Position numbers and translations under genes: made by a program. From contig NZ_CP040094.1 in NCBI RefSeq assembly GCF_013343235.1, positions 194,501 to 258,500 of the forward strand: 64,000 bases of DNA, written 5' to 3'. Source of the stretch: Nostoc sp. TCL240-02 (lineage in GTDB: Bacteria; Cyanobacteriota; Cyanobacteriia; Cyanobacteriales; Nostocaceae). This document shows positions 1 through 44,610 of the stretch, piece after piece; the stretch's first letter is position 1; each line of letters opens with the position of its first letter. The notes beneath the pieces were generated by a model. It saw nothing but the letters and a program-made list of their open reading frames with translations. It did no database searches and was not told the DNA's origin.

Positions 1-1107
1 AACGCGCTCGATATACTCGCTAGTCGCTTTGCCGGGACGAATACCGGGAATACTGGAACCCATTTTTTTCAAATTCTGCGCTACATCTACCGGGTTGAGA
101 ATCAACGAAGAATAGAAGTAGCTAAAGAAAATGATAGAAATCATGTAAACCAAGGCATAGACCCAAGAGCCAGAACCGCTTGGACTCAAATAAGTGTTAA
201 TTATATTTGCCAATTCAGCATTCTTGGCGAAATTTGCAATCAGTAGTGGCAAACTGAGGATGGCTGCGGCAAAGATAATTGGCATTACGCCGCCTTGATT
301 TAGCCGCAAGGGTAAAAAGCTCCGTTGCTCTGCCAAAACTCGACGACCAACTTGGCGACGAGCCGAAATAATCGGGATGCGGCGCATTCCTTCTTGGACA
401 ACCACAATACCAACAATGGTTGCCAGGAAAACTAAGATTAGTACTATGACGCGACCAACTGTTTCTCGACCGCCGACTTGTACCAAATCGATAGTATCGC
501 CTAATGCTTTTGGTAATGATGCGACAATGTTGACAAAAATTAACAATGATGCTCCATTGCCAATACCTCGTTCTGTAATGAGTTCTGATGCCCACATTAC
601 AAACATAGAACCAGCAGTCAGAGCGATCGCAGTTTCAGCTACAAAGATAGGCCCTGGATTTAAGGCAAATTGCTGGAGGAATAATGCTGAAAAAGCTGTA
701 CTTTGGAGAATTGCCCAACATACAGTGACATAACGGGTAATTTGCGATATTTTCCGCCGACCCGCTTCGCCTTCATTTTTCTGTAAATTTTCTAAAGATG
801 GAATCGCCGCGGTGAGCAATTGGATGATAATGGACGCATTAATAAAGGGTAAAATCCCTAAAGCAAAAACGCCCAAAGTCGAAAGTCCTCGCCCGGAAAA
901 TATATCCAATAAACCGAATATGGAATTATTGCCCGATATAGCTTCGGTAAATCTAGGTCTATCAATCCCTGGTACTGGCAAGTAGATGCCCAGGCGAACC
1001 AAAATCAAAACACCGACAGTTACAAGCAGCCTACCTCTAAGCCCGGCTGCTTGTGCCATCTGCATAAAAGTTTCTTGAGCCGTTGGGGCTTTATCTCGAC
1101 TGATCAT
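1..1107 (-). CDS. secY: Preprotein translocase subunit SecY (partial, C-terminus off the left edge)
   Basis: This is the central channel subunit of the SecYEG translocon, which moves unfolded proteins across or into the plasma and thylakoid membranes. The frame begins with an ATG at 1107 (MISRDKAPTAQETF) and stays open to base 1, giving about 369 residues of an expected 430-440. Family features visible are the first membrane segment, the segment LGIYLPVPGIDRPRF near residue 40, and GIRPGKATSEYIERV at the truncated end, a conserved cytoplasmic-loop region. It is the last gene of the ribosomal protein cluster, 74 bp after rplO, as in many bacteria. The remaining residues lie to the left of the window. 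Identification is firm. Confidence 0.96.
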   Translation of the reverse strand, partial: MISRDKAPTAQETFMQMAQAAGLRGRLLVTVGVLILVRLGIYLPVPGIDRPRFTEAISGNNSIFGLLDIFSGRGLSTLGVFALGILPFINASIIIQLLTAAIPSLENLQKNEGEAGRRKISQITRYVTVCWAILQSTAFSALFLQQFALNPGPIFVAETAIALTAGSMFVMWASELITERGIGNGASLLIFVNIVASLPKALGDTIDLVQVGGRETVGRVIVLILVFLATIVGIVVVQEGMRRIPIISARRQVGRRVLAEQRSFLPLRLNQGGVMPIIFAAAILSLPLLIANFAKNAELANIINTYLSPSGSGSWVYALVYMISIIFFSYFYSSLILNPVDVAQNLKKMGSSIPGIRPGKATSEYIERV

Positions 1108-1181
1108 AGAGTGCTACCTTTATAGTGAACCAGGCGCTGACAGCGAGTTGGCTTGCATTTAAGTGCGCTGTTCCGGCTCAC

Positions 1182-1625
1182 TCATAAGACTTCACAACTC
1201 CCTCCAGCTGCCTCAATTTTGCTACGAGCTGAACCTGTGAAAGCTGCCGCTTGTACCTTGAGCGGAATACTCAATTCCCCGTTACCTAAAATTTTCAATG
1301 GCCCTTTGACAGCAGTCAGAATACCTGCTGCCTTCAAGGAGGTCAAAGTTACTTCTGTATTAGCGGGAAGGGAGGCTAGCTTATCTACATTAATCGTAGT
1401 GTAAATCTTCTGATTAACAATCGGGAAGCCCTTCAGCTTAGGTAAGCGGCGGTACAATGGCTGTTGACCACCTTCAAAACCGGGTCGAGTACCGCTACCG
1501 GAGCGAGATTTTTGACCCCGCATACCTAGACCAGCACTAGCACCTTGTCCGGCAGAAATACCTCTGGCTACACGCTTCTTGCGTTTCTTTGAGCCTTTTT
1601 GCGGCTTAACATCATGGAGTCTCAT
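1182..1625 (-). CDS. rplO: 50S ribosomal protein L15
   Basis: L15 is a late-assembly protein of the large subunit that contacts 23S rRNA. The 147-residue product opens with [18 protein letters not shown] and the glycine- and arginine-rich N-terminal extension typical of L15 ([19 protein letters not shown]), followed by the compact C-terminal domain. Length is normal. It sits between rpsE and secY. The rpmD (L30) gene that lies just upstream of rplO in E. coli is absent. A 140-bp repeat-rich spacer separates it from rpsE. Confidence 0.97.
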
Positions 1626-1765
1626 AAGTTACCAAGTTGTCCTTTGTCATTTGTCCTTTGTCATTTGTCTTTTGTCATTTGTTATTCACTAATGAACGCC
1701 ACTTGCTTCAACAGGGGGAACCCCCGCAACGCAGTGGCTCCTAATGACCAATGACTAATGACTAG
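1626..1765. repeat. STRR heptamer repeat block in the rplO-rpsE spacer
   Basis: The spacer holds tandem heptamers of the type TTTGTCA/TTTGTCC at 1638-1680 and TAATGAC/CAATGAC at 1741-1762. The two blocks are roughly inverse to one another, so the transcript could fold into a long imperfect hairpin. A GC-rich segment (about 1710-1740, containing GGGGGAACCCCC) lies between the arms. This matches the short tandemly repeated repetitive sequences known from heterocystous cyanobacteria. Confidence 0.85.
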
Positions 1766-2293
1766 TTAGATGTAGAGATTTTCAATAGGAATACCGCGAT
1801 CTTCCGCGACTTCAGAAAGAGTCCGCAATGTAGATAAGGCATTGACTGCGGCTCTAGCATTATTAAGCGGATTGTTAGAACCAAGCTGCTTGGCTAATAT
1901 GTTACGAACTCCTGCCAATTCCAACACAGTCCGCACAGCACCACCAGCAATTACCCCAGTACCAGGTGCGGCTGGACGCATAATCACTTTTGCACCGCCA
2001 CCGACACCATCAATGGGATGGGGGATGGAGTTGGATTTAGTAATTGGGATATCAATCAGGTGTTTTTTGCCGTCAGCTACGCCTTTTTTAACTGCGCCAA
2101 TTACATCTGAAGCTTTGCCTACACCGACACCAACTTGACCGCGTTCGTTACCAACGACAACGATCGCTCGGAAGCTGAGTTTTTTACCACCTTTGACGAC
2201 TTTGCTCACGCGGCGGATTTGGATAACCCGCTCTTGCCAAGTGGTTTCCTCTTTTTTGGCACGCTTTGTTCTACTTTTACGCTCTGTTGCCAT
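1766..2293 (-). CDS. rpsE: 30S ribosomal protein S5
   Basis: S5 belongs to the small subunit and contributes to decoding accuracy and to helicase activity at the mRNA entry channel. The 175-residue protein has the N-terminal double-stranded-RNA-binding-like domain ([20 protein letters not shown]) and the C-terminal domain with [19 protein letters not shown]. The lysine-rich start [16 protein letters not shown] is typical of cyanobacterial S5. It lies between rplR and rplO in the spc part of the operon, with repeat-filled spacers on both sides. Confidence 0.97.
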
Positions 2294-2309
2294 AATTTAT
2301 ACTCTGGTG

Positions 2310-2386
2310 AACGTCATTTGTCAGTTGTCATTTGTCATTTGTCTTTTGTCATTTGTCCAATGACTAATGACTAATGACCAATGACT
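2310..2386. repeat. STRR heptamer repeat block in the rpsE-rplR spacer
   Basis: Tandem TTTGTCA-type heptamers (about 2314-2355) are followed by TAATGAC/CAATGAC-type heptamers (about 2356-2384). The two halves are imperfect inverse copies, so a fold-back is possible. No coding sequence is evident. Confidence 0.8.
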
Positions 2387-2749
2387 TTAGAAATCTAAAC
2401 CGGCTTCGCGTGCTGCATCAGCTAAAGCTTTGACACGACCATGATATAAGTTACCACCGCGATCAAAGACTACTTTGGTGATGCCTTTTTCTAGCGATCG
2501 CACTGCGATCAATTTACCAACTTGCACTGATGCGTCGCGGTTTGCACCTGACGCTAAACTAGATTTCAAATCTGGTTCTAAAGTCGATGCTGCCACTATG
2601 GTTTGATGCTGACTATCATCAATTACCTGGGCATAAATATGCTCATTAGAACGGAATACCGCTAAACGTGGACGTTCTGGGGAGCCAACTACTTTGCCAC
2701 GAACGCGGCGATGACGACGGTTTTTTGATTCTCTACGAGTAAGTTTCAT
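2387..2749 (-). CDS. rplR: 50S ribosomal protein L18
   Basis: L18 binds 5S rRNA and helps place it in the central protuberance. The product has 120 residues, the usual length, with the basic start [20 protein letters not shown], the core segment [20 protein letters not shown] and the conserved end [13 protein letters not shown]. It starts 2 bp after the rplF stop, so the two are probably translationally coupled. Confidence 0.97.
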
Positions 2750-2751
2750 TT

Positions 2752-3300
2752 TTACTTCTTACCACCCTTACCAGTCTTACCAGCCTTACGTCTTACCACT
2801 TCACCGGCATAGCGAATACCTTTACCTTTGTAAGGTTCTGGTGGACGAACGGCGCGAATTTTTGCGGCTGTGTTGCCTACAATTTCTTTGTCGTAGCCGC
2901 TAACAATCACGTTAGTAGTACCTTCGACTGCAAACTGAATTCCTTCTGGTGGCTCAATTTGCACCTGATGGCTGTAACCCATGTTTAGAACTAGGTTACG
3001 CCCTTGAAGTTGTGCCCTGTAACCAACACCTTGGATTTCCAAACGGCGCTGAAAACCTTGGGAAACTCCCTCGACCATGTTGGCAACTAAAGTGCGGCTC
3101 AAGCCGTGCAGTTGCTTCGATGTCCGAGTTTCATCCCGACGATTTACGTGTAATATTTCTCCCTCTTGAGAGAGCGAGACATTATCTCTGAGAGTGCGAG
3201 AAAGTTCTCCTTTCGGGCCTTTCACTACAATATTCGTACCATCGATCGCCACTTGAACTTTGGCGGGAATAGTAATTGGACGTTTACCAATACGAGACAT
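2752..3300 (-). CDS. rplF: 50S ribosomal protein L6
   Basis: L6 is a large-subunit protein near the GTPase centre. I chose the ATG at 3300 ([15 protein letters not shown]), which gives 182 residues. The frame is open for 16 codons further upstream, but those codons ([11 protein letters not shown]) are simply heptamer repeat read as protein and match no L6. Two related domains are visible, with the conserved C-terminal segment [16 protein letters not shown] followed by a basic tail. The gene sits between rpsH and rplR. Confidence 0.96.
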
Positions 3301-3420
3301 TACTTTTTGTCCTTTGTTATTTGTCCTTTGTCCTTTGTTACTTACCATTTGTTATTTGCCTTTTATCCTTTGCTCAGACAAATGACCAATGACTAATGAC
3401 AAACGACTAATGACCAATGA
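3301..3420. repeat. STRR heptamer repeat block in the rplF-rpsH spacer
   Basis: TTTGTCC/TTTGTTA heptamers (about 3306-3375) are followed by CAATGAC/TAATGAC heptamers (about 3378-3420) running up to the rpsH stop codon. The arrangement is again two arms in inverse orientation. Confidence 0.85.
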
Positions 3421-3822
3421 CTACCAAACGTAACAAAGCACTTCGCCACCCAAGTTTTGACGACGCGCTTCGCGGTCAGTCATAATCCCACTGGATGTAG
3501 AAATAATGGCAATGCCAATGCCGCCTAGTACTCTTGGTAATTCTTTTCTATTGGAGTAAACACGCAAGCCTGGCTTACTCACTCGCTTTAAGGCGGTGAT
3601 TAGAGGCTGACGATTCTTACCTTTATATTTTAGGGAAATCACTAGGTTATGTTTTACCCCTTCTTCTGCTTCTTCGATTTCAGCAATAAAGCCTTCCTCC
3701 CGTAGCACTTTGGCAATGCTGCGGGTCATTTTTGTAGCTGGCACTTGTGTAGTTTGATGCCGCGCCAGGTTGGCATTGCGGATGCGCGTCAGCATATCTG
3801 CAATTGTGTCGTTAGCCGCCAT
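3421..3822 (-). CDS. rpsH: 30S ribosomal protein S8
   Basis: S8 binds the central domain of 16S rRNA and in E. coli also represses the spc operon. The 133-residue product has the typical start [18 protein letters not shown] and the C-terminal RNA-binding signature [18 protein letters not shown]. It follows rplE directly. The rpsN gene found between them in E. coli is missing here, which is usual in cyanobacteria. Confidence 0.97.
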
Positions 3823-3842
3823 CGTTCCCTCTATAGATGAAC

Positions 3843-4391
3843 TTACTGATCGCGAAAGGGCATTCCTAATTCTTTAAGTAAGGCGCGGCCCTCTTCGTCG
3901 TTTTTTGCTGTGGTGATGATGGAAATATCCATCCCACGCACTTGATCAACGCTGTCGTATTCGACTTCTGGAAAAATTAGCTGTTCTCTTACACCCAGAG
4001 TATAGTTACCCCGTCCGTCAAAGCTTTTAGGGCTAACGCCGCGAAAATCTCGAATTCTGGGCAGTGATAGGCTAACTAGTCGATCGAAAAAGGCATACAT
4101 CCGCTCGGATCTAAGAGTAACCATGATCCCTACGGGCATCCCCTGACGAATCTTAAAGCCAGCGATCGCTTTTTTCGCCCGCGTTACCACTGGTTTTTGA
4201 CCAGTAACAAGCGCAATTTCATTGATGGATGCTTCCAGCGACTTTGCATTTTGAGCCGCCTCACCCAAACCTCGGTTAATAGTTACCTTTACCAACTTCG
4301 GTACTTGATGAACGTTGGTATATTGAAACTGATTAATCAGTTTTGGGACGATTGTCTCTTGATATAAGCTTTTAAGTCTTGTTGTCGCCAT
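3843..4391 (-). CDS. rplE: 50S ribosomal protein L5
   Basis: L5 binds 5S rRNA and contacts P-site tRNA. The 182-residue protein carries the family segments [38 protein letters not shown] and [19 protein letters not shown]. It lies between rplX and rpsH. The 20-bp spacing to rpsH suggests co-transcription without repeats at this junction. Confidence 0.97.
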
Positions 4392-4435
4392 AGTTTTTTG
4401 TCCTGATATCCCTGGGCTTGGTCAGGGAACTTTTA

Positions 4436-4498
4436 TTGTCCTTTGTTATTTGTCGCTTGTCTTTATTACTAATGACCAATGACTAATGACTAATGACT
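4436..4498. repeat. STRR heptamer repeat block in the rplX-rplE spacer
   Basis: TTGTCCTTTGTTATTTGTCG-type heptamers are followed by CAATGAC/TAATGAC heptamers ending at the rplX stop. It is a short version of the two-armed block seen in other spacers of this operon. Confidence 0.8.
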
Positions 4499-4850
4499 AT
4501 TTATCCAAAATCTCGCCAGTTTTTTTAAGTTTTCTGACTTTCTTGCCTTCTGAGGTAAAGGTATAACAAACACGACTGGCAACGTTCTGCTTAGTGGAAT
4601 AAAGCATCACGTTAGAGCTATGAATTGGGAATTCCTGGGTGACAATCCGCCCTGATTCCCCTTCTTGCTGGGGTTTGACGTGCTTGGTTTTAATGTTGAC
4701 ACCTTTGACGATGACTTTACTCAGTTGGGGAAGTGCCTGGATAATTTCACCAATTTTTCCTTTGTCTTTCCCAGCAATCACTTGTACGGTGTCGCCAGTT
4801 TTGACGTGCATTTTGTGGAATACTTTGGGCGTACCCTGTTTGGTTGCCAT
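4497..4850 (-). CDS. rplX: 50S ribosomal protein L24
   Basis: L24 is an assembly initiator of the large subunit. The 117-residue product has a KOW motif near the N-terminus ([20 protein letters not shown]). Its ATG overlaps the rplN stop codon by one base, so translational coupling with rplN is likely. Length fits cyanobacterial L24. Confidence 0.96.
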
Positions 4851-5218
4851 TAAAGCACCTCCGGAGCCAGAGAAACAATTTTGGTAAAGTTTTTATCGCG
4901 CAGTTCACGGGCAACTGGGCCAAAAACTCGTGTACCTCTTGGATTACCGTCTTTGTTGATAATCACAGCAGCGTTATCATCAAAGCGAATACTCATGCCA
5001 CTGTCACGAGATACAGCTTTCCGAGTGCGGACAATTACTGCTTCCACAACATCAGACTTTTTGACAGCCATGTTGGGTGTAGCATCTTTGACGACGGCGA
5101 TAATTTTATCACCGATAAAACCATAACGGCGGTTGCCTCCACCTAAGACGCGGATGCACATTAGTTTACGAGCGCCGCTATTATCTGCGACATTTAGGTA
5201 AGTCTGGGGTTGAATCAC
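4850..5218 (-). CDS. rplN: 50S ribosomal protein L14
   Basis: L14 lies at the subunit interface and forms an intersubunit bridge with 16S rRNA. The 122-residue protein starts [18 protein letters not shown], the classic L14 N-terminus, and ends [20 protein letters not shown]. It precedes rplX with a one-base overlap. Confidence 0.97.
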
Positions 5219-5264
5219 AATTATTCTCCCTTGTGGTGTTGTTAGTTTCTAACAACGATGAGGT

Positions 5265-5513
5265 TTAAGCGGGCTTGACGTTCAGGACTTCTGTGATTTT
5301 CCAGCGCTTGGTTTTGCTCAGGGGTCTAGTTTCCTGAATGCGAACGCGATCGCCTACTTTACACTTATTTTCTTCGTCGTGAACTTTATATCGTTGGGTG
5401 TTAACCACAATTTTGCCGTACTTGGGGTGAGGAGCGCGATTTTCTATGGCAACTACCACAGTTTTTTGCATTTTATCGCTCACTACCAAGCCAACTCGTT
5501 CTTTAACTGCCAT
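5265..5513 (-). CDS. rpsQ: 30S ribosomal protein S17
   Basis: S17 is a primary 16S rRNA-binding protein with an OB fold. The 82-residue protein has the conserved segment [19 protein letters not shown] and the signature [18 protein letters not shown]. It starts 6 bp after rpmC, consistent with tight coupling. Confidence 0.97.
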
Positions 5514-5519
5514 AATCTC

Positions 5520-5747
5520 CTACTTTTTTTCTTTAGCCGATTGACTTGCTGCCCGTTTGCGTTCTGTTTCTAATGTCAGCAATTGGGCTAGGCGATGTCG
5601 AGCCTGTCTGAACTGGTGGGGCTTTTCTAATTGTCTTGTTGCTTTTTGCAAGCGCAACTGAAATAGTTGTCTTTTGATCGCAACAATTTCATCAGAGAGC
5701 TTCTCGTCACTTAATTCTCTAGCTTCTGAAATCTTGGGAAGAGGCAT
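5520..5747 (-). CDS. rpmC: 50S ribosomal protein L29
   Basis: L29 sits near the polypeptide exit tunnel and is part of the docking site for trigger factor and SRP. The 75-residue helical protein contains the L29 core LSDEIVAIKRQLFQLRLQKA and a basic C-terminus. It lies between rplP (3 bp away) and rpsQ (6 bp away). Confidence 0.94.
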   Translation of the reverse strand: MPLPKISEARELSDEKLSDEIVAIKRQLFQLRLQKATRQLEKPHQFRQARHRLAQLLTLETERKRAASQSAKEKK

Positions 5748-5750
5748 AAG

Positions 5751-6176
5751 CTACTCCTGCTCCTGTGGTTGAGAGCGCACAATAAACTTGGTTTTTATAG
5801 GCAGTTTAAATGAAGCTAAACGCATAGCTTCCCGGGCGATTTCTTCAGAAACCCCACCGATTTCAAACAAAATTCGTCCTGGCTTGACTACCGCTACCCA
5901 AAACTCTGGATTACCTTTACCGGAACCCATCCGGGTTTCAGCAGGACGCATGGTTACAGGTTTATCAGGGAAAATCCGAATCCAGATTTGTCCACCCCGA
6001 CGAATATAACGAGTCATTGCCCGACGAGAAGCCTCGATTTGCCGGGAGGTAATCCAAGCAGGTTCTTGTGCTTGGAGTGCAAAATCACCGAAGTTGAGGG
6101 TACTACCACGGGTGGCTAGTCCCTCCATCCGTCCGCGCTGTTGTTTGCGGAATTTAGTTCTTCTAGGGCTTAACAT
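5751..6176 (-). CDS. rplP: 50S ribosomal protein L16
   Basis: L16 helps position A-site tRNA near the peptidyl-transferase centre. The 141-residue protein starts [19 protein letters not shown] and contains [20 protein letters not shown] and [19 protein letters not shown], both L16 signatures. It is between rpsC and rpmC. Confidence 0.97.
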
Positions 6177-6182
6177 GATTGG

Positions 6183-6285
6183 CTACTAGGTACTAGGTAC
6201 TGGGGATTAGGGATTGGGAATTAGGGATTGGGGATTGAGAATTCTTACCCAGCCCCCAGTCCCCATTCCCCAGTCCCCGTTTACC
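6183..6285. repeat. Heptamer-type repeats in the rpsC-rplP spacer
   Basis: The spacer is built of ACTAGGT, GGGGATT/AGGGATT and CCCCAGT heptamers. The GGGGATT run (about 6201-6235) and the CCCCAGT/CCCCATT run (about 6249-6276) are inverse to each other and can fold back. Confidence 0.75.
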
Positions 6286-7063
6286 CTTCATTTGAGCGGT
6301 CTTCAAATTGCTGGCGACGACGTTGTTGTTGACGGCGACGGGGTTCACGTTCGCGATCGCGTGGGTCACGTTCGCGATCACGGCTTGCGGGTGGTAGCGG
6401 ATCTGGTTCCTGTCCAGGAATAATTTCTCCCTTAAATACCCAAACCTTGATGCCCAAAATGCCGTAAACAGTTTTTGCCGTGCAATAAGAGTAGTCAATG
6501 TCAGCCCGTAAAGTATGTAAAGGTACTCTACCTTCACGAGTCCACTCTGTCCGGGCAATTTCTGCACCGTTGAGCCGGCCGCTGACTTGGATTTTAATAC
6601 CTTGAACACCAGCGCGTTGGGCACGCTGAATTGATTGCCGCACTACCCGCCGAAAGGAAACCCGGCGTTCCAATTGTTGAGCAATGTATTCGGCAATTAG
6701 GTAGGCATCAGCATCAACTCGTTGAACTTCAACTACGTTAATGCGAATTTGGCGATTGCTACCCAATAGTCCTTGGAGTCCGGTACGCAAGGATTCTATA
6801 CCTTGCCCACCACGCCCTACTACTACACCAGGTCTAGCTGTGCGTACTTCTAAGTCGATTTGGTCGGCTTTGCGCTCAATCCGCACTTCGGAAATTCCGG
6901 CGTTGTTTTGAGCAAGTCTACCCAGCTTTTGTTCTATATATTGACGGAGTTTGTGATCTTCTTGTAAAAGTTCTGGATAGCGGTCAGGAACAGCAAACCA
7001 ACGGGATTGATGTTCATGTGTAATACCCAGGCGAAAACCAACTGGATGAATCTTCTGTCCCAC
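6281..7063 (-). CDS. rpsC: 30S ribosomal protein S3
   Basis: S3 forms part of the mRNA entry channel of the small subunit. The 260-residue product has the N-terminal KH domain ([16 protein letters not shown] region) and the C-terminal domain with [20 protein letters not shown] and the conserved WVFKGEII. Beyond this is a tail of about 40 residues dominated by Arg, Asp, Glu and Gln ([20 protein letters not shown]). The tail makes the protein longer than E. coli S3 (about 233 residues). It may be a locally expanded repeat. Confidence 0.96.
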
Positions 7064-7116
7064 GAATGCTTCCTCTAAGATTTCTTACTTTACGTAATTT
7101 ATTCGTGTAAGCGTGC

Positions 7117-7473
7117 TTATTTTTCTGGTGCGGCTCCAACGGCCACAGTAATATGGCACGTCGGTTTGCGAATTTGGTAAGCTCGACCTTGCGCTCTTGG
7201 TTGGAACCGCTTTAACGGTGGCCCTTGATCGGCATAAGCCTGAGTAATCACTAGTTGAGTCCGATCTAACCCAGCGTTGTGTTCAGCATTAGCAGCAGCG
7301 CTTCTGAGAACCTTCAAGATGGGTTCAGTGGCGCGATAGGGCATGAATTCCAAGATGATTAGCGCTTCTCGGTACGATCGCCCCCGGATTTGATCGAGTA
7401 CCCGACGCACTTTGTAGGCCGAGATGCGGATAAAACGAGCGATCGCTTTTACTTCAGTAGTATTAGTAGCCAT
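7117..7473 (-). CDS. rplV: 50S ribosomal protein L22
   Basis: L22 lines the peptide exit tunnel. I chose the ATG at 7473 ([16 protein letters not shown], 118 residues). An ATG seven codons upstream is possible but would start inside the repeat-rich spacer. The core shows [20 protein letters not shown] and the C-terminal signature [18 protein letters not shown]. It lies between rpsS and rpsC. Confidence 0.96.
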
Positions 7474-7479
7474 AATTTT

Positions 7480-7556
7480 CTCCAATTTTGTCATTTGTCA
7501 TTTTTCATTTGTCACTTGTCTTTAGCTAATGACTAATGACTAATAACTAATGACTA
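7480..7556. repeat. STRR heptamer repeat block in the rpsS-rplV spacer
   Basis: TTTGTCA/TTTTTCA heptamers (about 7487-7520) and TAATGAC/TAATAAC heptamers (about 7525-7556) face each other as in the other spacers. Confidence 0.8.
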
Positions 7557-7832
7557 CCTACCCGCTTTTTTGTCACTTTTTCCATGACCCCTATAGGTGC
7601 GTGTCGGGGCAAATTCACCCAACTTGTGTCCTACCATCTGTTCATTTACAAAAACTGGAACGTGTTGTCGTCCGTTGTGAACAGCGATGGTATGACCTAC
7701 CATTAGGGGCAAAATTGTCGAAGCTCTTGACCAAGTTTTAATAACTTCTTTTCTGTTATTGTCGTTGAGCTTTTCAATTTTCTTTAAGAGATGATCCGCA
7801 ACGAAAGGACCTTTTTTTAGAGAACGACCCAT
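7554..7832 (-). CDS. rpsS: 30S ribosomal protein S19
   Basis: S19 contacts the A-site region and the head of the small subunit. The 92-residue product begins [20 protein letters not shown] and contains the signature [20 protein letters not shown] followed by [12 protein letters not shown]. It lies between rplB and rplV. Confidence 0.97.
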
Positions 7833-7835
7833 AGT

Positions 7836-7975
7836 TCAATTTTGGATTTAGGATTTAGGAATTAGGATTTAGAATTTCGGATTTTGGATAATTAGGTGAG
7901 TAAATCAGGTTTCACAAATTTTCAATGTTCACAAGTAGACCCCAATCTACAATCCAAAATCTAAAATCTAAAATT
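7836..7975. repeat. GGATTTA/AATCTAA repeat block in the rplB-rpsS spacer
   Basis: The left part is GGATTTA-like units (about 7842-7890) and the right part CCAAAATCTAAAATCTAAAA units (about 7951-7977). The parts are imperfect inverse copies. The unit differs from the TTTGTCA/TAATGAC blocks but the two-armed design is the same. Confidence 0.75.
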
Positions 7976-8839
7976 CTATGATTCACGACCACCGCGACCG
8001 CGTTTAGAAGACTTACGGCGACGACGCACAATGAATTTGCTGCTAAGTTTCTTGCGATTGCGTGTCTTCGCGCCCAATGTGGGTTTACCCCAAGGTGTAA
8101 CAGGTCCAGATCTACCGATAGGAGCCCTACCTTCACCACCACCATGTGGGTGATCCACTGGGTTCATGACGCTACCTCTAACCTTCGGACGGCGACCTTT
8201 CCAGCGATTGCGTCCTGCTTTACCTGCGCTCAGGTTTCTCGCATCGGTGTTGCCCACTTGCCCAATGGTGGCGTAGCAATCACGCCGAATTAAGCGGACT
8301 TCTCCCGAAGGCAACTTGAGAGTTACATAATCACCTTCTTTTGCCACAACTTGAGCGCTAGCACCAGCAGCCCGCACGATTTGACCACCTTTACCAGGAG
8401 TCATTTCTACGTTGTGAACGCTAGTACCTAAGGGAATCCTTGATAGAGGTAAAGCATTACCATCTTCAAAGGGAGATTCAGGGCCAGAAATAATTATTGT
8501 TCCAACTTTCAACCCGTTGGGATGAAGAATGTACCGTTTTTCGCCATCTTGGTAGTACAAAAGGGCAATTCGGGCATTACGGTTAGGATCGTATTCAATT
8601 GCTGCGACTTTAGCAGGAATATTATGTTTATCCCTTTTAAAATCGATGATCCGGTAAAGTTGTTTGTGTCCGCCACCCCGGCGACGACTGGTAATCCGCC
8701 CGGTATTATTCCGACCTTTGGCGCGATGCTTTGAGGTAGTTAGGGATTTTTCTGGCTCGGTTTTTGTGATTTCCGCAAAGTCAGAAACTGTAACTTGGCG
8801 AGTGCTGGGGGTATAAGGGCGATAAGAACGAGTACCCAT
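7976..8839 (-). CDS. rplB: 50S ribosomal protein L2
   Basis: L2 is needed for subunit association and peptidyl-transferase activity. The 287-residue protein starts [20 protein letters not shown] and contains [20 protein letters not shown] and the signature [19 protein letters not shown], which includes the conserved histidine near the catalytic centre. The tail is basic. Length is normal. Confidence 0.98.
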
Positions 8840-8841
8840 AA

Positions 8842-8980
8842 TCTATTTTGGATTTTGGATTTTTGATTTACTTAAATTTCGGATTTTGAATTTTGGATTT
8901 AATGAGTGTTTAACTAATTACGACCATGTTTGGTATTTATTCAGTAAACTCCTCAATCTAAAATCTAAAATCTAAAATTC
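8842..8980. repeat. GGATTTT/AAATCTA repeat block in the rplW-rplB spacer
   Basis: GGATTTT and GGATTTA units (about 8845-8900) lie upstream of AATCTAAAATCTAAAATCTA units (about 8957-8976). The arms can pair imperfectly. No gene is visible in the spacer. Confidence 0.7.
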
Positions 8981-9295
8981 CTAGACTTCTGGGAATAGAA
9001 CTTGTCTAATCTTGTCTTCATCCCCAGGTGCGACTGTAACAATGGCTCGCTTATATTGGGGCTTATAACCGATAAATTTACCAACGCGCCGTTTTTTACG
9101 TGGTGGTAAGTTGGTGTTGACTTTTACAACCTTGACCTGAAATAAGTCTTCGATCGCAGCCTTGATTTCTGGCTTAGATGCCTTTGGAATTACTTCAAAG
9201 GTGTACTTATTTTGCTCCATCAAGATAGTCGCCTTCTCGGTGACTATTGGGCGACGTACTAAGTCGGCAAGGTCGCGGGGGTCAAAGCTAGGCAC
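8981..9295 (-). CDS. rplW: 50S ribosomal protein L23
   Basis: L23 is at the exit tunnel and docks trigger factor. The 104-residue product has [22 protein letters not shown] and the segment [20 protein letters not shown]. Its start overlaps the end of rplD by 8 bp, so the two are translationally coupled. Confidence 0.97.
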
Positions 9296-9926
9296 TGTAG
9301 ACCTCCTGAATTTTTTCTAGGGCTGATGCCGTAACTACAATTTTGTCAGCGTGCAGTAAATCAAAAACATTTAACTGGTCGGCTGCAATTAGTTTTAAAT
9401 TTTCAATGTTGCGGGCTGACAAATAAACATTATCTGTATCCGCAATTTCAGACAAAATTAACAGTGCCTTGCTTTCTGGCGCTACTCCCCAACGGGCAAG
9501 AGCTGCTACTAAGTCTTTAGTTTTCGGGCGAGATAGCTCGGTGCTAAATTCTTCTACTACGATCAAATCGTCAATGCGGCTGACAAATGCTGTCCGCAGT
9601 GCTAAACGTCGCTCTTTGCGGTTCAACTTCAGGTCGAAATCTCTAGGCTTTGGCCCAAAGATCACACCACCACCACGCCACAATGGTGAACGAATAGACC
9701 CTGCACGAGCGCGACCAGTACCTTTTTGTCGCCAAGGTTTACGACCGCCACCTCTAACTTCAGCACGAGTTTTTGTACTGGCGTTTCCTTGACGAGCATT
9801 GGTTAATTGCCGTACTAAGGCACGATGCACGATATGGGAGGCTGTTTCTTCTTTGGCAACGCGCAACTCGAAGGTCGTCTCGCCGACCTGTTCTCCTTGC
9901 CAATTTTTAACTACGCTTTCAACCAT
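9288..9926 (-). CDS. rplD: 50S ribosomal protein L4
   Basis: L4 lines the exit tunnel and in E. coli autoregulates the S10 operon. I chose the ATG at 9926 ([16 protein letters not shown]), giving 212 residues. The frame is open for 22 more codons upstream, but those codons ([11 protein letters not shown]) are heptamer repeat and not an L4 N-terminus. The central loop [20 protein letters not shown] type segment is present. It overlaps rplW by 8 bp. Confidence 0.95.
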
Positions 9927-10074
9927 CTTTGTTATTTTGTCCTTTGTCTTTTGTCCTTTGTCTTTTGTCATTTGCCATTTTTCTTTTGCCATTTGTCATT
10001 TGTTCTTTGTCCTTAAACCAATTGACAAATGACTAATGACCAATAACTAATGACTAATTACTAATGACTCTTGA
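9927..10074. repeat. STRR heptamer repeat block in the rplC-rplD spacer
   Basis: This is the longest block of its type here: TTTGTCC/TTTGTCT heptamers (about 9931-10010) followed by TAATGAC/CAATAAC heptamers (about 10021-10075). The arms are imperfect inverse copies. Confidence 0.85.
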
Positions 10075-10707
10075 CTATCCCACTACTTTCGCGGGTACAA
10101 CACTTACCAGAGCGCCTGGTTTACCAGGAATGGCTCCTTTAATTAGCAATAAATTGCGTTCTGCATCAACTCGCACTATGGTCAGCTTACGGATTGTAAT
10201 GCGTTTTCCACCTAAACGCCCTGCCATCCGCTTACCTGGATAGACACGACCTGGTGTTGTACCAGCACCAATAGAACCTGGCGCTCTGTGGTTTTTGGAA
10301 CCGTGTGACATGGGCCCACGACCAAAGTTGTTGCGCTTCTGGTTTCCCGCAAAACCGCGACCGATGCTTGTGCCGACTACATCGACAATTTGACCCGCAC
10401 TAAAAATATCTGCTTTAATCTGTTGACCTAAAGCATAATCACTAGAACTATCAGTGTGATATTCATTTAGGTGACGCAATGCTGGGGCAGATGATTTAGC
10501 CAAATGACCCAGTAGTGGTCTGTTCAGTGCTTTTGGTTTAACTTCGCCAAAACCAACTTGGATGGCAAAGTAACCGTCGGTTTGTTTCGTTTTAACTTGT
10601 GTAACAGTGCATGGACCTGCTTGAATGACAGTCACAGGAATAGCTACTCCTGCTTCGTCAAATATTTGGGTCATGCCCAGCTTGGTGCCGAGAATACCTA
10701 CAGACAC
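10075..10707 (-). CDS. rplC: 50S ribosomal protein L3
   Basis: L3 is an assembly initiator of the large subunit near the peptidyl-transferase centre. The start is a GTG at 10707 ([17 protein letters not shown]), preceded by AAAGGAGA about 11 bases upstream. The product has 210 residues and contains the L3 signature around [20 protein letters not shown]. It is the first gene of the operon. The rpsJ gene that leads the E. coli S10 operon is not present here. Confidence 0.97.
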
Positions 10708-11662
10708 AGTAACTGGTTCTCCTTTCTACTTGCTGACCTTGGAATTGGACTCTAGAGGACACGCTTTGTACGCATCAGTTTAGGCTGAGTTAGCCTGCGA
10801 AATTTGGCATGGTTTTAGTAAACCAGTCCAAAAACTTTGGGACACAACAAACCGTGTCCGTACTGCTTGGTGAATCTGTTTAGCTTCACTCAATAGATCA
10901 CCAGAACAGCTACAATTCTCTTCCGTTTGGGAAGGAGTAACTTCTGGAATCAATGCAAGGCGCTACAGTTTTAAGCTGTGTGCAGCAATGCTTTCGTCCA
11001 AGCAATTGCTTTGGCACTTTCTGGAGGCAGCGCTGTCGGCGGGTTTTCCGATTTGTGTACGCCCTAATGACGGTTTCCCGGAGGTTGGCTACTGCCCTGT
11101 TGCAGTTGGACTTAAGCGGTCTTTACCGCCCAGTATCCATTAACTGAGACTGACGTAATGCCATGAAACCAACATTGCTGCTCAGTTTTACTTCCTTAAA
11201 TACCTTAAACTATTGTTTAAGATTTCGCCTGCTTTTTCAGAGGCACGGGAGCAAATTCACTCTGGAGCTTAGGATTGGCTTTGATTGTTCATCCATAAGC
11301 TCCAATGTTGACCTGAAAGCTTTCTTAGTTTACCAGTCTATGATCAATCTGAGTTATATTATCCAATTTGGATTAAATTATCAGCTCTTAATGCTAACAC
11401 TACCTCAGAATGACAGTAAAAAGTTTATCTAATTTGCGTGTTTGGTCACAATCTAATAATATAAATTATTTATTTATGTTTGTCCAGTAATTTATAGAGT
11501 TATTTTTAGTGAGTAGGGAAGAACAGGGAAGCATCGGGCAAAGGGAGAATAAAAAATTATCTCTTTCCCCTCTGCCTCTTCTCAATACCCAAAGAAAATG
11601 CTTTTAATCTAGCGGTTCAGGGTAAATAATAGAGATATCTAAGTGGGATAAGACGAAAATCT
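10708..11662. other. Long divergent spacer and rplC leader without a recognisable gene
   Basis: I see no coding sequence I can support in these 955 bp. The half near rplC (10770-11160) is rather GC-rich and contains several short perfect stems, for example ACTGC-GCAGT around 11092-11107, GCGGT-ACCGC around 11118-11131, and the palindrome AAGCAATTGCTT around 11000. The half near ndhN is AT-rich. The region probably holds the promoters of the ribosomal operon and of ndhN and may include a structured leader, which is inference. Confidence 0.5.
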
Positions 11663-12139
11663 ATGGCACTAATTACCACTGGCAACGGTTTAATCCGCGA
11701 TCTGGAAAAATTTGGCGCTCTTGGAGTGTATGTACCTCTGGAAGGGGGTTATGAGGGTAGATATCAACGCCGACTACGCGCTGCTGGCTATACCACCCTC
11801 CACATTACTGCCAAGGGACTGGGCGACGTAGCTGCCTATCTCACAAGAATTCATGGAGTCAGACCTCCTCATCTTGGAAAAAAAAGCACTGGTAGCGGTG
11901 CGGCAGTAGGTCAGGTGTACTATTTGCCACCAATTCTCGATTCTCATCTAGAACAGCTACCACCAAAGTCAAAGGGGCTGGTTTTGTGGATTATTGAAGG
12001 GCATATTCTTTCTAATGAGGAACTTGAGTATTTAACGAATTTGCCTCAGTTAGAACCACGAGTGAAAGTAGTAATTGAGAGAGGTGGCGATCGCGCCTTC
12101 CGTTGGACTTCTCTAGAAAAAACTCTGTTAGCTAGTTAG
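11663..12139 (+). CDS. ndhN: NAD(P)H-quinone oxidoreductase subunit N (NDH-1)
   Basis: NdhN is a small peripheral subunit of the thylakoid NDH-1 complex, found in cyanobacteria and plastids, that serves respiration and cyclic electron flow. The 158-residue protein starts MALITTGNGLIRDLEKFGAL and contains YEGRYQRRLRAAGYTT, both typical. It is divergent from rplC. A perfect 14-bp hairpin made of heptamer repeat follows its stop codon. Confidence 0.93.
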   Translation: MALITTGNGLIRDLEKFGALGVYVPLEGGYEGRYQRRLRAAGYTTLHITAKGLGDVAAYLTRIHGVRPPHLGKKSTGSGAAVGQVYYLPPILDSHLEQLPPKSKGLVLWIIEGHILSNEELEYLTNLPQLEPRVKVVIERGGDRAFRWTSLEKTLLAS

Positions 12140-12151
12140 TCCTTTGTCATT

Positions 12152-12191
12152 AGTCATTAGTCATTGAGTTATAAGCAAATGACTAATGACT
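12152..12191. repeat. Perfect heptamer-derived hairpin after ndhN
   Basis: AGTCATTAGTCATT (12152-12165) and its exact reverse complement AATGACTAATGACT (12178-12191) flank a 12-base loop. It is an STRR block arranged as a perfect 14-bp stem. It could act as a 3' end or RNA stability element for ndhN but has no T-tract. Confidence 0.7.
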
Positions 12192-12953
12192 TAATTCAAT
12201 CAGCATTTCAATAATGCTGAGTCGAAAAGCACAAGATGCAAATAATCGGCAGGAAGTCTGGTAAATAAATGCTGTATCTAGACGAATTTGCTTAATGCCC
12301 ATCTGATGAAGGGTATGTCAGCTTTTGTCGCAGGGTGAATCAACAGAATTTCTGGAAATTGTTGCAGAAACGGTAGAAGTGGTCATCTGAAATGGTTGTA
12401 AGATTTAGAGACTACGGCAAAAGGCTTTCTGATTTTGAGGAAGAAAAGCTATGTTCAATCAAGGTTGCGAGAACGCTTGCCAGATGACACATCAGGCTGG
12501 AACAATAGCAGTCTTGCCAGCCGCCTACCCCGATGGATAAAGTTGACGCAGCATCGGGAAAAAGTTTTACAGAAAATTCAACAATTAAAACAGAGGTTGT
12601 AATTAAGGTTTTAATTCTGTTGGTGAGCGAATTTATAACCACCCCACAGAGAAAGAGCGATCGCAATCACTAGCAAAATTGGTATCGTGTATCAAGGAAA
12701 CTGGGATAAAAATAAATTATCCCGATCGACGAGAGTGCAACCATCCCCAGTAATTATGAATTCTAAATAGTTATTATAGTTACCACTAATCCCTGAGCCG
12801 GGTTTGATAGAACTACCCAGACCTAAGCCAAAAGCTAAAATGTATATCAGTGGAGATATTAAGCCTGATGCAGTCAAGACTAGGCATATTGAAAAGAGAG
12901 ATAAAACTTTAGACCACTCCCTGCAAAATGGACGCGAAGGTGATTAAGCAACA
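12192..12953. other. Gene-poor stretch with decayed coding remnants
   Basis: No intact gene is recognised. On the plus strand at 12402-12602 there is an open frame of 66 codons without a good start, with coding-like content (LRERLPDDTSGWNNSSLASR, then a basic glutamine-rich helix-like end). Pieces with similar character lie upstream in other frames (FLEIVAETVEVVI around 12340-12388), which suggests a frameshifted pseudogene. On the minus strand at 12692-12877 a TTG-initiated frame of 61 residues resembles a signal-anchor followed by a short domain. I cannot assign either. Confidence 0.3.
12402..12602 (+). pseudogene. Possible C-terminal remnant of an unidentified gene
   Basis: The frame runs from just after a stop at 12399 to a stop at 12602 and lacks an ATG. 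It reads as a plausible soluble C-terminus (SRLRERLPDDTSGWNNSS, RWIKLTQHREKVLQKIQQLK). The upstream DNA has protein-like segments in other frames, so frameshift decay is the simplest reading. The identity of the parent gene is unknown. Confidence 0.25.
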
Positions 12954-13493
12954 ATGAGACGTAAACCCTCTAGTAGATCGGCTACTACTTCTAAACCCTC
13001 TATTTTCCAATCCCCTATGTTTAACCTCTTCACCATCGCAATTATGGGAGGGGTGTTGATTTTAGGAATTGGGATTGGCATTGCTTTTAGTTCTACAACC
13101 ACGTTAGCCCCATCAAATGTGGCTTCCCGTGAATTCATTGACACCAAAGCACCAAACCCGGAAATTTGTGTACAGTACGGAGCTAGCGCGATGGTGATGG
13201 ACGCTAGACTGTTCGTTACTCTAAACCCTTTTAATGTTTATGTTGCCCAGCCGAGTATGCGTCCTGGATGTGTGATCCGACAAAATAACTGGGCGCTTTT
13301 AGAGCAACGTAAGTTGGTGACATCCGATCAGGTAAATGAGTGCAAAAATCGCCTGAACACCTTTGGCTTTACAGGTAACTTGGACAGTGACAAACCTGAT
13401 ATTAGGTGTATATATCAGAATGAAGCTGCTCAAAACTTCTTTACGGCTCAACCAGGAGCAGTTGGAACTCCTCAAGAAACGGACAGATTTTAG
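12954..13493 (+). CDS. DUF3172-type membrane-anchored protein
   Basis: The 179-residue protein has a basic Ser/Arg-rich start, one membrane segment at about residues 24-46 (LFTIAIMGGVLILGIGIGIA), and a conserved domain with CVQYGASAMVMDARLFVTLN and PSMRPGCVIRQNNWALLEQR. This pattern matches, from memory, the cyanobacterial and plastid family DUF3172, whose function is not known. Several cysteines are present in the lumenal or periplasmic part. The gene stands alone, facing the DeoR-type regulator. Confidence 0.7.
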   Translation: MRRKPSSRSATTSKPSIFQSPMFNLFTIAIMGGVLILGIGIGIAFSSTTTLAPSNVASREFIDTKAPNPEICVQYGASAMVMDARLFVTLNPFNVYVAQPSMRPGCVIRQNNWALLEQRKLVTSDQVNECKNRLNTFGFTGNLDSDKPDIRCIYQNEAAQNFFTAQPGAVGTPQETDRF

Positions 13494-25535: not shown

Positions 25536-25662
25536 ATGGGGCATTGGGAATTGAAAAGAGGCAGAGGGGCAGAGAAGAAAACTCTTTTCCCTTGCTCTCT
25601 GCTCCCTTACTCCTTGCTCCCCTGCTCCCTGCTCCCCTGCCTCCTCACTCCCTAGTCCCTTA
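25536..25662. repeat. CTCCCTG/CTCCTTG repeat block between hisF and ruvB
   Basis: A purine-rich half (AGAGGCAGAGGGGCAGAGAA) is followed by tandem pyrimidine-rich units (CTCCCTGCTCCCCTGC). The two halves can pair imperfectly. It is in the divergent promoter region of hisF and ruvB. Confidence 0.65.
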
Positions 25663-26784: not shown

Positions 26785-26830
26785 TGGGGATTGGGGATTG
26801 GGGATTGGGGATTGGGCATTGAGCATTGGT
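26785..26830. repeat. TTGGGGA heptamer array after ruvB
   Basis: Four or five tandem GGGGATT heptamers followed by degenerate copies (GGGCATT, GAGCATT) start three bases after the ruvB stop. This is an STRR array in the plus-strand 3' region of ruvB. Confidence 0.8.
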
Positions 26831-34979: not shown

Positions 34980-35393
34980 TTAGACCAAACCGCCAGCCGC
35001 TTGAAACCGAGCGCGGGCGCGTTTGAAGGCTTGATTTGCCTTAATTTGGGCTTGGCGATCGTCTGCTGAGACCTGAGTGAGTCCCGCTTCTGCTTGGTTG
35101 TAAGCAGCACGAGCTTCTTCTAGGTTAATTTTGTCGCCACGTTCAGCGCCGTTAACCAGAATTGTCACTTCGTTCTCTTCGACTTCGGCAAAGCCACCCA
35201 AAAGGGCGATCGCTTCCCAATTCTGATTTTTCGCGGCACGGACTCGCATTACACCAGTATCCAGGGCGGTTAAAAGTGGTGCGTGTCCAGTGAGGATACC
35301 TAGTTGACCAGTTGTGCTAGGCAAAACTACTTCTTCAGCTGGAGCATCCCAGACTGTTTTATCTGGAGAAATTACCCGAACGGTTAATGTCAT
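34980..35393 (-). CDS. atpC: ATP synthase epsilon subunit
   Basis: The epsilon subunit belongs to the central stalk of F1 and inhibits ATP hydrolysis. The 137-residue protein starts [20 protein letters not shown], contains the N-terminal beta barrel with [19 protein letters not shown], and ends in a two-helix region ([16 protein letters not shown] onwards). It is downstream of atpB in the two-gene operon usual for cyanobacteria and chloroplasts, where the other ATP synthase genes are elsewhere. Confidence 0.97.
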
Positions 35394-35394
35394 T

Positions 35395-35509
35395 TGTCTT
35401 TTGTCCTTTGTCCTTCGTCATTTCTCACTTGTCTTTTGCCATTAGCCATTAGCCATTAGCACTTAAACTAATGACTAATGACCAATAACTAATGACCAAC
35501 GACTAATGA

Positions 35510-35512
<3 letters not shown>
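35395..35512. repeat. STRR heptamer repeat block in the atpB-atpC spacer
   Basis: TTTGTCC/TTTCTCA units and ATTAGCC units (about 35397-35462) are followed by TAATGAC/CAATAAC/CAACGAC units (about 35468-35511), again in inverse orientation. The first transcribed arm starts next to the atpB stop codon. Confidence 0.8.
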
Positions 35513-37293
<1,781 letters not shown>

Positions 37294-44420: not shown

Positions 44421-44610
44421 ATCAATTTTAGATTTTAGATTTTAAATTTTAGATTTTTAAATTAGCCCTGTCTCTTATCCTAGTTATTTTTAGCAGGGGT
44501 TTGTGGCTCAAAGGAGAATAACCCTCATCAACGCTGAGTGAGGAGTGGGAAGAAATAAACCAATGACCAATGACTAATGACCAATGACTAATGACCAACA
44601 AAAAGTCATA
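44420..44610. repeat. Heptamer-type repeats between the GTPase gene and tpiA
   Basis: TTTTAGATTTTAGATTTTAA units at 44426-44460 and CAATGAC/TAATGAC heptamers at 44561-44594 fill most of this divergent spacer, which must also contain the tpiA promoter. Confidence 0.65.

Follow-up and report, generated by a model that had tools for sequence, protein, structure and literature searches.

Heterocyst-forming cyanobacteria harbor heptamers of a known class of cyanobacterial repeats, the short tandemly repeated repetitive sequences (STRRs), which were reportedly described by Mazel in 1990 as direct-repeat arrays. The elements considered here belong to this class and are located in the spacers of the S10-spc ribosomal operon of Nostoc sp. 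TCL240-02, within a stretch of 64,000 nucleotides (contig NZ_CP040094.1, positions 194,501 to 258,500; hereafter, the window) of a genome of 7.89 Mb in one contig. They share with STRRs the period of 7, the intergenic location, and the occurrence in many copies; however, whereas STRRs are said to be direct-repeat arrays, many of those found here are arms that face each other in pairs, strongly polarized and of matched families.

PMC2408588 lists STRR sequences of Nostoc PCC 7120, for example ttgtcagttgtcag. Moreover, PMC2670836 describes STRR hairpins in the hupS-hupL intercistronic region and ahead of hoxW, for which a role in transcript stability or in the coupling of translation was suggested, and calls the function of STRRs unknown. 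The ribosomal operon makes this question testable, as it offers nine sites in one essential operon, natural alleles with matched arms and unrelated sequences, and control spacers devoid of arrays in the same transcript. As in hupSL, the STRRs lie here between co-directional genes and are predicted to fold into hairpins; however, the hupSL and hoxW hairpins are single intercistronic cases, whereas here nine spacers of one operon were compared over 95 loci. A further relative is stem P6b of the Nostoc tRNA-Leu(UAA) group I intron, where two classes of seven-nucleotide repeats build a similar stem with repeated class shifts (PMC4476775) and the heptanucleotide repeats pair into a hairpin (PMC3488679). 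In both systems the stem is largely kept while the repeat class is replaced, although P6b belongs to one structured intron, whereas the present elements are mRNA spacers with at least six heptamer families. STRRs, the hupSL STRR hairpin, and heptamer-class replacement in the trnL P6b stem are thus already in print. No report of two-armed arrays in ribosomal operons, of matched-arm cassettes, or of a polarity rule in Nostoc was found in the open-access literature searched, an absence that is weak, since key older papers fall outside this scope.

The elements of the ribosomal operon may well be intercistronic mRNA hairpins that are kept for their pairing rather than for their sequence, and that probably protect or separate the cistrons. 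This reading builds on computed properties, i.e., the two-armed architecture, the conservation of its form, the matching of the arms, the enrichment in the operon, and the lower variability of paired columns. The operon extends from rplC to secY on the minus strand of the window; eight of its genes were checked with Pfam, and the remaining names are those that we take to apply from gene order and sequence. As had been claimed in the sequence-only reading, two facing period-7 arrays able to pair are present in all nine spacers named between rplC and rplO (9/9), although the one called rplF-rpsH is, in mRNA order, rpsH-rplF. The statement that nearly every longer spacer carries such arrays holds for nine of the ten spacers of at least 70 nt, the exception being rplO-secY (75 nt). 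Arrays are also absent in the window from rplE-rpsH (20 nt), rpsQ-rplN (46 nt), and rplV-rpsC (53 nt), as well as from the tightly coupled junctions of -8 to +6 nt, in agreement with that reading. Three heptamer families occur in this operon. The heptamers TTTGTCA/TAATGAC (in mRNA sense, GTCATTR/TGACAAA), given before as the prevailing ones, account for six spacers, but not for rpsC-rplP, with GGGGATT/CCCCAGT (in mRNA sense, family GGGGACT/AATCCCC), nor for rplW-rplB and rplB-rpsS, with ATTTTGG/AATCTAAA (family ATTTTAG/AATCCAAA). The nine elements are given below with their best ungapped arms in window numbering (for the minus-strand mRNA, with the 5' arm listed before the 3' arm) and with z values from folding each spacer in mRNA sense against 200 dinucleotide shuffles.

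9953..10068, minus strand: rplC-rplD two-armed element; arms 10068-10019 (GTCATTR type) and 10002-9953 (TGACAAA type), 36/50 paired, z -7.4.
8845..8980, minus strand: rplW-rplB two-armed element of the ATTTTAG/AATCCAAA family; arms 8978-8955 and 8868-8845, 21/24 paired, z -3.4.
7838..7975, minus strand: rplB-rpsS two-armed element of the ATTTTAG/AATCCTAA family; arms 7975-7944 and 7869-7838, 24/32 paired, z -1.9 (weak).
7490..7554, minus strand: rpsS-rplV two-armed element; arms 7554-7530 and 7514-7490, 20/25 paired, z -4.1.
6202..6278, minus strand: rpsC-rplP two-armed element of the GGGGACT/AATCCCC family; arms 6278-6248 and 6232-6202, 23/31 paired, z -3.3.
4438..4497, minus strand: rplX-rplE two-armed element; arms 4497-4470 and 4465-4438, 20/28 paired, z -1.8 (weak).
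3316..3421, minus strand: rpsH-rplF two-armed element; arms 3421-3376 and 3361-3316, 33/46 paired, z -4.1.
2310..2388, minus strand: rplR-rpsE two-armed element; arms 2388-2359 and 2339-2310, 25/30 paired, z -3.5.
1660..1762, minus strand: rpsE-rplO two-armed element; arms 1762-1743 and 1679-1660, 17/20 paired, z -4.3, partly from an insert in the loop.

The predicted folding into hairpins is strong in seven of the nine spacers, with z values from -3.3 to -7.4 and 0 or 1 of the 200 shuffles equally low, and weak in rplX-rplE (9/200 shuffles as low) and rplB-rpsS (11/200). Two spacers, rplW-rplB and rplB-rpsS, have a 3' array longer than its 5' counterpart; there the minimum-energy fold pairs inner 3' copies, ending at 8874 and 7868, respectively. 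One share of the fold energy of rpsE-rplO comes from a second hairpin within the loop. Rfam gave no match at the gathering score in positions 1-13000 of the window.

Orthologous spacers were collected from 50 Nostoc genomes, which together with the window make 51 Nostoc loci, and from 44 other loci, i.e., 40 from other genera (of 54 other genera matched) and four named loci that possibly repeat a genus. Among spacers of at least 45 nt, a stem was taken as significant when it beat all of 20 dinucleotide shuffles, as it did in 421 of 458 Nostoc spacers and in 226 of 346 from the other loci. The control spacers of Nostoc gave 0/42 in rplV-rpsC, 1/51 in rplO-secY, and 20/49 in rpsQ-rplN, where the stem is a short perfect hairpin without an array (in the window, GTTGTTAG-AAA-CTAACAAC in the spacer at 5219-5264). 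In the other loci, where some control spacers bear arrays (rplO-secY 11/44, rpsQ-rplN 6/22, rplV-rpsC 1/36), the corresponding values were 2/36 in rplV-rpsC, 12/44 in rplO-secY, and 9/22 in rpsQ-rplN. Hence, position and two-armed form largely persist across the 95 loci while the sequence changes, which is the outcome that the sequence-only reading had proposed as support for selection. In a set of 44 more distant loci (L106-L149), spacers are short, with medians of 13-35 nt at seven of the nine positions and longer ones at rplX-rplE and rplR-rpsE; at least one spacer with an array was found in 14 of these 44, among them L109 (Kamptonema) with 11 spacers and L113 and L116 (both Symploca) with 9 and 7, rplV-rpsC and rpsQ-rplN included.

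Counted from the first stop-codon base, the 5' arm starts in Nostoc at medians of 1-9 nt, depending on the spacer, and the median distance from the end of the stem to the next start is 18 nt (21 nt in the other loci). In the nine folds of the window, the last paired base lies 5-35 nt ahead of the start, and 59-96% of the final 20 nt of the spacers are unpaired by prediction. This placement fits a hairpin of the cistron 3' end by which access to the next ribosome-binding site would mostly be preserved. Such stem-loops directly past stop codons might also be transcription terminators or attenuators that set polarity along the operon, a function proposed for the STRR hairpin upstream of hoxW in PMC2670836, and two-armed arrays are commonest between convergent genes. 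However, this is highly improbable here, because a scan detected no terminator-like minus-strand site (stem plus T run) in any of the nine spacers, the sequence after the stem is A-rich and not T-rich in the two spacers inspected, and nine such sites inside one essential operon are implausible. The idea that stop codons seed the arrays was also considered. The rpsS-rplV array shares its register with TAG, the stop codon of rpsS, and in the operon spacers the stop codon is repeated at +7 and +14 above other offsets (86 and 117 of 458 in Nostoc, 56 and 42 of 366 in the others); however, in-register cases are a minority and the genome-wide excess is small (49 and 47 of 1043 versus 20-39 at other offsets), and the idea was rejected.

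Each Nostoc spacer alternates among a few cassettes, all of them two-armed. For instance, rpsC-rplP carries GTCATTA/TGACAAA, GGGGACT/AATCCC, or GGGCATA/AATGCCC, and rplX-rplE carries GTCATTA/GACAAAG, GAGTTAG/TAACTCA, or GATTTTA/AATCCAAA. When mapped on a tree from the operon coding DNA, the cassette family changed at least 10, 14, 13, 22, and 7 times in five spacers, a total of 66 that may include exchanges as well as new switches, given that the tree was built from the operon itself; exchange by recombination is probable for much of this turnover, since the same cassettes recur. The two arms tend to change together. Using at least six hand-drawn heptamer families, both arms could be classed in 663 of 774 spacers of at least 55 nt (one arm in 82, none in 29), and the arm families agree in 556 of these 663, compared to 432 expected and 452 at the top of 300 permutations; the commonest non-matching classes are GAGT with TGAC (34) and GAGT with ATTTT (25). 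Moreover, pairing with the spacer's own 3' half surpasses the average obtained with halves swapped in from other genomes in 309/448 Nostoc spacers and 242/336 of the others, and that obtained with halves from other spacers of the same genome in 364/448 and 247/336, respectively.

Mobile palindromes of the REP/REPIN type are defined by one conserved sequence with a fixed foot and by a RAYT-type transposase. No such single conserved sequence was found in these spacers, where unrelated heptamer families serve one and the same spacer. Other repeats are inserted within the arrays or loops, so that the arrays serve as insertion sites. The rpsE-rplO loop (1691-1742) contains an insert with another hairpin-forming repeat, and hairpin-forming repeats (e.g., GTAGAGACGCGATTAATCGCGTCTCTAC, and a longer one ending in CACTGGCTCAC) are also seen inside arrays or loops of ribosomal protein spacers in loci L174, L187, L192, L193, L196-L199, and L216. 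In rplX-rplE, a small hairpin (CCCTGACCAAGCCCAGGG) and a leader lie 3' of the array (4392-4430, minus strand) and are nearly invariant in the 51 Nostoc loci whatever the cassette; this hairpin is a separate conserved element ahead of rplE.

Constraint on pairing was assessed in 21 groups (139 sequences) of alike, ungapped Nostoc spacers. Diversity was 0.049 in paired columns and 0.154 in mismatched ones (19/21 groups), a comparison affected by ascertainment bias, since polymorphic columns drop into the mismatch class; loops gave 0.111 and the last 15 nt 0.034. A conservative count that takes ever-complementary pairs as paired, and that is biased in the opposite direction, still gave 0.066 versus 0.103 (p = 1e-3, 14/21 groups), and partners slid by 1-3 positions left a small gap at most, the largest at +3 (0.056 versus 0.081, p = 0.05). 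This constraint, together with the matching of cassettes, supports selection on pairing, to which covariation at the base level adds no support. Homogenization within each arm could also focus variation on one heptamer position, and therefore the constraint on paired columns falls short of proof.

The mismatches follow the period of the repeat. The chance of a mismatch 7 bp after another one is 0.55 in Nostoc, versus 0.12-0.28 at the other spacings tested, and 0.50 versus 0.19-0.22 in the other loci, while the longest perfect run averages 6.5 bp, compared to 9.1 bp with mismatches shuffled (7.0 versus 8.7 in the others). This heptad pattern would follow from separate homogenization of each arm and speaks against one arm being copied from the other. 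In addition, mismatches on the sense strand are strongly skewed, with A·A 1095, G·A 458, A·G 414, and U·U 54 in the Nostoc operon and 322, 280, 83, and 61, respectively, in the operon of the other loci. The base bias of the control spacers (A 0.35-0.36, T 0.26-0.27) is too small to produce this skew alone.

The wider occurrence of the arrays was surveyed in 80 stretches of 20 kb (1.6 Mb, 20% of the genome, with denser sampling over the first 2.7 Mb), with genes called by a home-made model (75.5% coding) whose starts sometimes extend into arrays. The S10-spc region was counted in the array totals, the pairing, and the polarity counts of hairpins and single arrays, and was set apart in the tests of spacer orientation, where the operon class comprises genome positions 195500-205500 only (about rplO to rplC). 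Period-7 arrays number 404 between and 48 within genes, compared to 29-98 intergenic arrays for periods 4, 5, 6, 8, 9, 10, 11, and 12. Two probes of 20-21 nt matched 397 and 250 times genome-wide at up to two mismatches, overlapping matches counted; thus, both the tandem heptamers and the dispersed, multicopy, intergenic occurrence of STRRs were found. Array pairs at most 250 bp apart (n = 111) included 43 inverted and 11 direct matches, whereas 3000 random draws that skipped pairs of the same stretch gave 176 and 174, and 95 of the 404 arrays belong to two-armed structures. Taking as two-armed a spacer of 70-250 nt with an array and a stem beating 20 shuffles, such spacers amount outside the operon to 51/338 between co-directional, 23/94 between convergent, and 4/67 between divergent genes (divergent depletion, p = 0.002 versus convergent and p = 0.05 versus co-directional), so that their frequency grows as more gene 3' ends adjoin the spacer. 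In the 51 co-directional cases, the 5' arm lies at a median of 6 nt past the stop and the 3' arm 30 nt ahead of the start. The form is therefore not peculiar to the operon, a point on which the sequence-only reading is not supported, but it is enriched there; an equal frequency at random sites would have spoken against a function in the sequence-only reading, and the operon reaches 7/9 versus the 51/338 of other co-directional spacers (p = 7e-5). Within the window, a further spacer has, judging from its sequence alone, facing arrays of the same kind:

35388..35513, minus strand: atpB-atpE spacer (ATP synthase beta, then epsilon), with facing heptamer arrays.

The abundance of arrays between genes gives some weight to a possible, if somewhat doubtful, alternative, according to which the elements are a by-product at the DNA level. 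Slippage would grow the heptamers, and fold-back repair, template switching, or the insertion of ready-made cassettes would add the second arm, without function and tolerated where harmless, i.e., between genes, but not in promoters or at coupled junctions. The avoidance of divergent (promoter) regions, the few recurring cassettes per spacer scattered over the genus tree, and the absence of base-level compensation agree with this account, and the short outgroup spacers make the arrays resemble added length. The tolerance of expansion at uncoupled junctions, which had been raised before as an option, likewise explains why coupled junctions and short outgroup spacers lack arrays, but neither the matching of arms nor the lower variability of paired columns. 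Moreover, template copying predicts perfect arms, yet one heptamer position stays unmatched; and the more variable mismatched columns, the skew of operon mismatches by transcribed strand, and the enrichment of two-armed arrays in the operon are not expected from a by-product.

The arrays also obey a polarity, for which arrays with a G-C difference below 3 were omitted. In the sample, the plus-strand composition of an array depends on its side of the intergenic region, arrays of the left half being mostly G-rich and arrays of the right half mostly C-rich, regardless of gene directions (outside the S10-spc-alpha region, 206 agree and 58 disagree), with the weakest bias between divergent genes (24 versus 12). 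Where both arms of a hairpin belong to arrays, 27 cases are G-first, 3 C-first, and 3 tied; where one arm does, the counts are 14, 3, and 2, respectively, whereas array-less hairpins have no polarity (52, 47, and 20). Among 194 regions with a single array, 133 were scorable and 98 of these follow the G-first rule; a complementary partner was found on the expected side in 42/133 and on the other side in 5. The operon spacers with significant stems give 366 G-first, 23 C-first, and 32 ties in Nostoc, and 181, 25, and 20 in the other loci. A G-rich arm that comes first largely whatever the gene direction, a feature absent from other hairpins, is thus a rule binding any account of the origin of the arrays. 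GGGNATC heptamers are repeats of Xanthomonas and Nostoc. PMC4692102 counts 70 and 75 inverted pairs of convergent orientation in two Xanthomonas genomes and places arrays near the 5' neighbor gene, which we read as the same G-first polarity in another phylum. A bias by replication strand was also considered, since orientation among the best 100 TTTGTCA matches looked position-dependent, and dropped, because totals are balanced (192 versus 205) and the side within the intergenic region sets array orientation in the sample. In rplR-rpsE of L090, L098, L174, L187, and L195 (L090 and L187 look like one record), the arm types are exchanged, with TTTGTCC first and TAATGAC second, as if by inversion or substitution of the reverse complement.

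A polarity that is the same on both strands, includes single arrays, and holds for any gene orientation, most weakly the divergent one, would be natural for elements acting as DNA, such as arrays that bind proteins, cruciforms, or sites of recombination, without a role in RNA, and frequent cassette switching across the genus would agree with them. These are decidedly unlikely, given the depletion between divergent genes, the location right past stops, and the strand-skewed mismatches, which indicate transcripts.

Under the preferred reading as intercistronic mRNA hairpins, two facing arrays would form the hairpin, with the 5' arm at or just past the upstream stop and the 3' arm usually ending some 15-30 nt ahead of the next start, which would keep the ribosome-binding site mostly single-stranded. 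We infer that slippage would homogenize the arms independently, leaving one unmatched position every 7 bp, and that selection, probably acting on the mRNA, would hold the remaining heptamer positions complementary between the arms, with pairing constrained and sequence free. Whole cassettes would be swapped or replaced over time while both arms stay matched. The most likely role would be mRNA punctuation, in which, as is generally known of intercistronic hairpins, 3'-to-5' exonucleases may be blocked and neighboring cistrons kept separate in translation, conferring stability per cistron. A broader and rather unlikely version would make this a sequence-free punctuation in which any heptamer with a matching arm serves, cassettes are swapped freely between species, a mismatch every 7 bp holds helix runs to ~6 bp, with which the hairpin blocks exonucleases yet escapes RNase III, and the G-first order is a general law of heptamer palindromes, common to Xanthomonas.

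Several results weigh against the preferred reading. In rplW-rplB and rplB-rpsS the ungapped stem, and in rpsC-rplP and rpsE-rplO the fold, reaches within 5-8 nt of the next start, so that the binding site is not free of structure everywhere. No base-by-base compensatory changes were found within allele groups (2 cells in the real register, 0-6 in slid controls), and covariation is visible solely between whole heptamer families. The stems have no preference for G·U over A·C (266 versus 505 in Nostoc, 166 versus 300 in the others), which does not help an RNA helix, where selection might be expected to favor G·U, and the mismatch skew is weak in co-directional elements outside the operon (A·A 40 versus U·U 15). 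Scored against each other, the two halves do better inverted than as direct repeats in only 332/448 Nostoc spacers and 203/336 of the others, and the wide distribution of arrays means that the pattern may be partly mutational. Finally, the G-first polarity is without explanation under an mRNA-hairpin model, while a second genus (160 kb sample) shows the same direction without significance (17 versus 9, p = 0.17).

More heptamer arrays, G-rich or of the ATTTTAG or ACCAATG kinds, occur in the window at 25588-25640, 26785-26829, 31108-31141, 44425-44463, and 44559-44598. Outside the window, facing heptamer arrays are found in L012 at 8434-8615, 9494-9558, and 10408-10483, between genes that, from order and sequence, we take to be rpsI- and rpmE-like, truA- and rplM-like, and rplQ- and truA-like, respectively, and thus the two-armed architecture seems to continue beyond secY.

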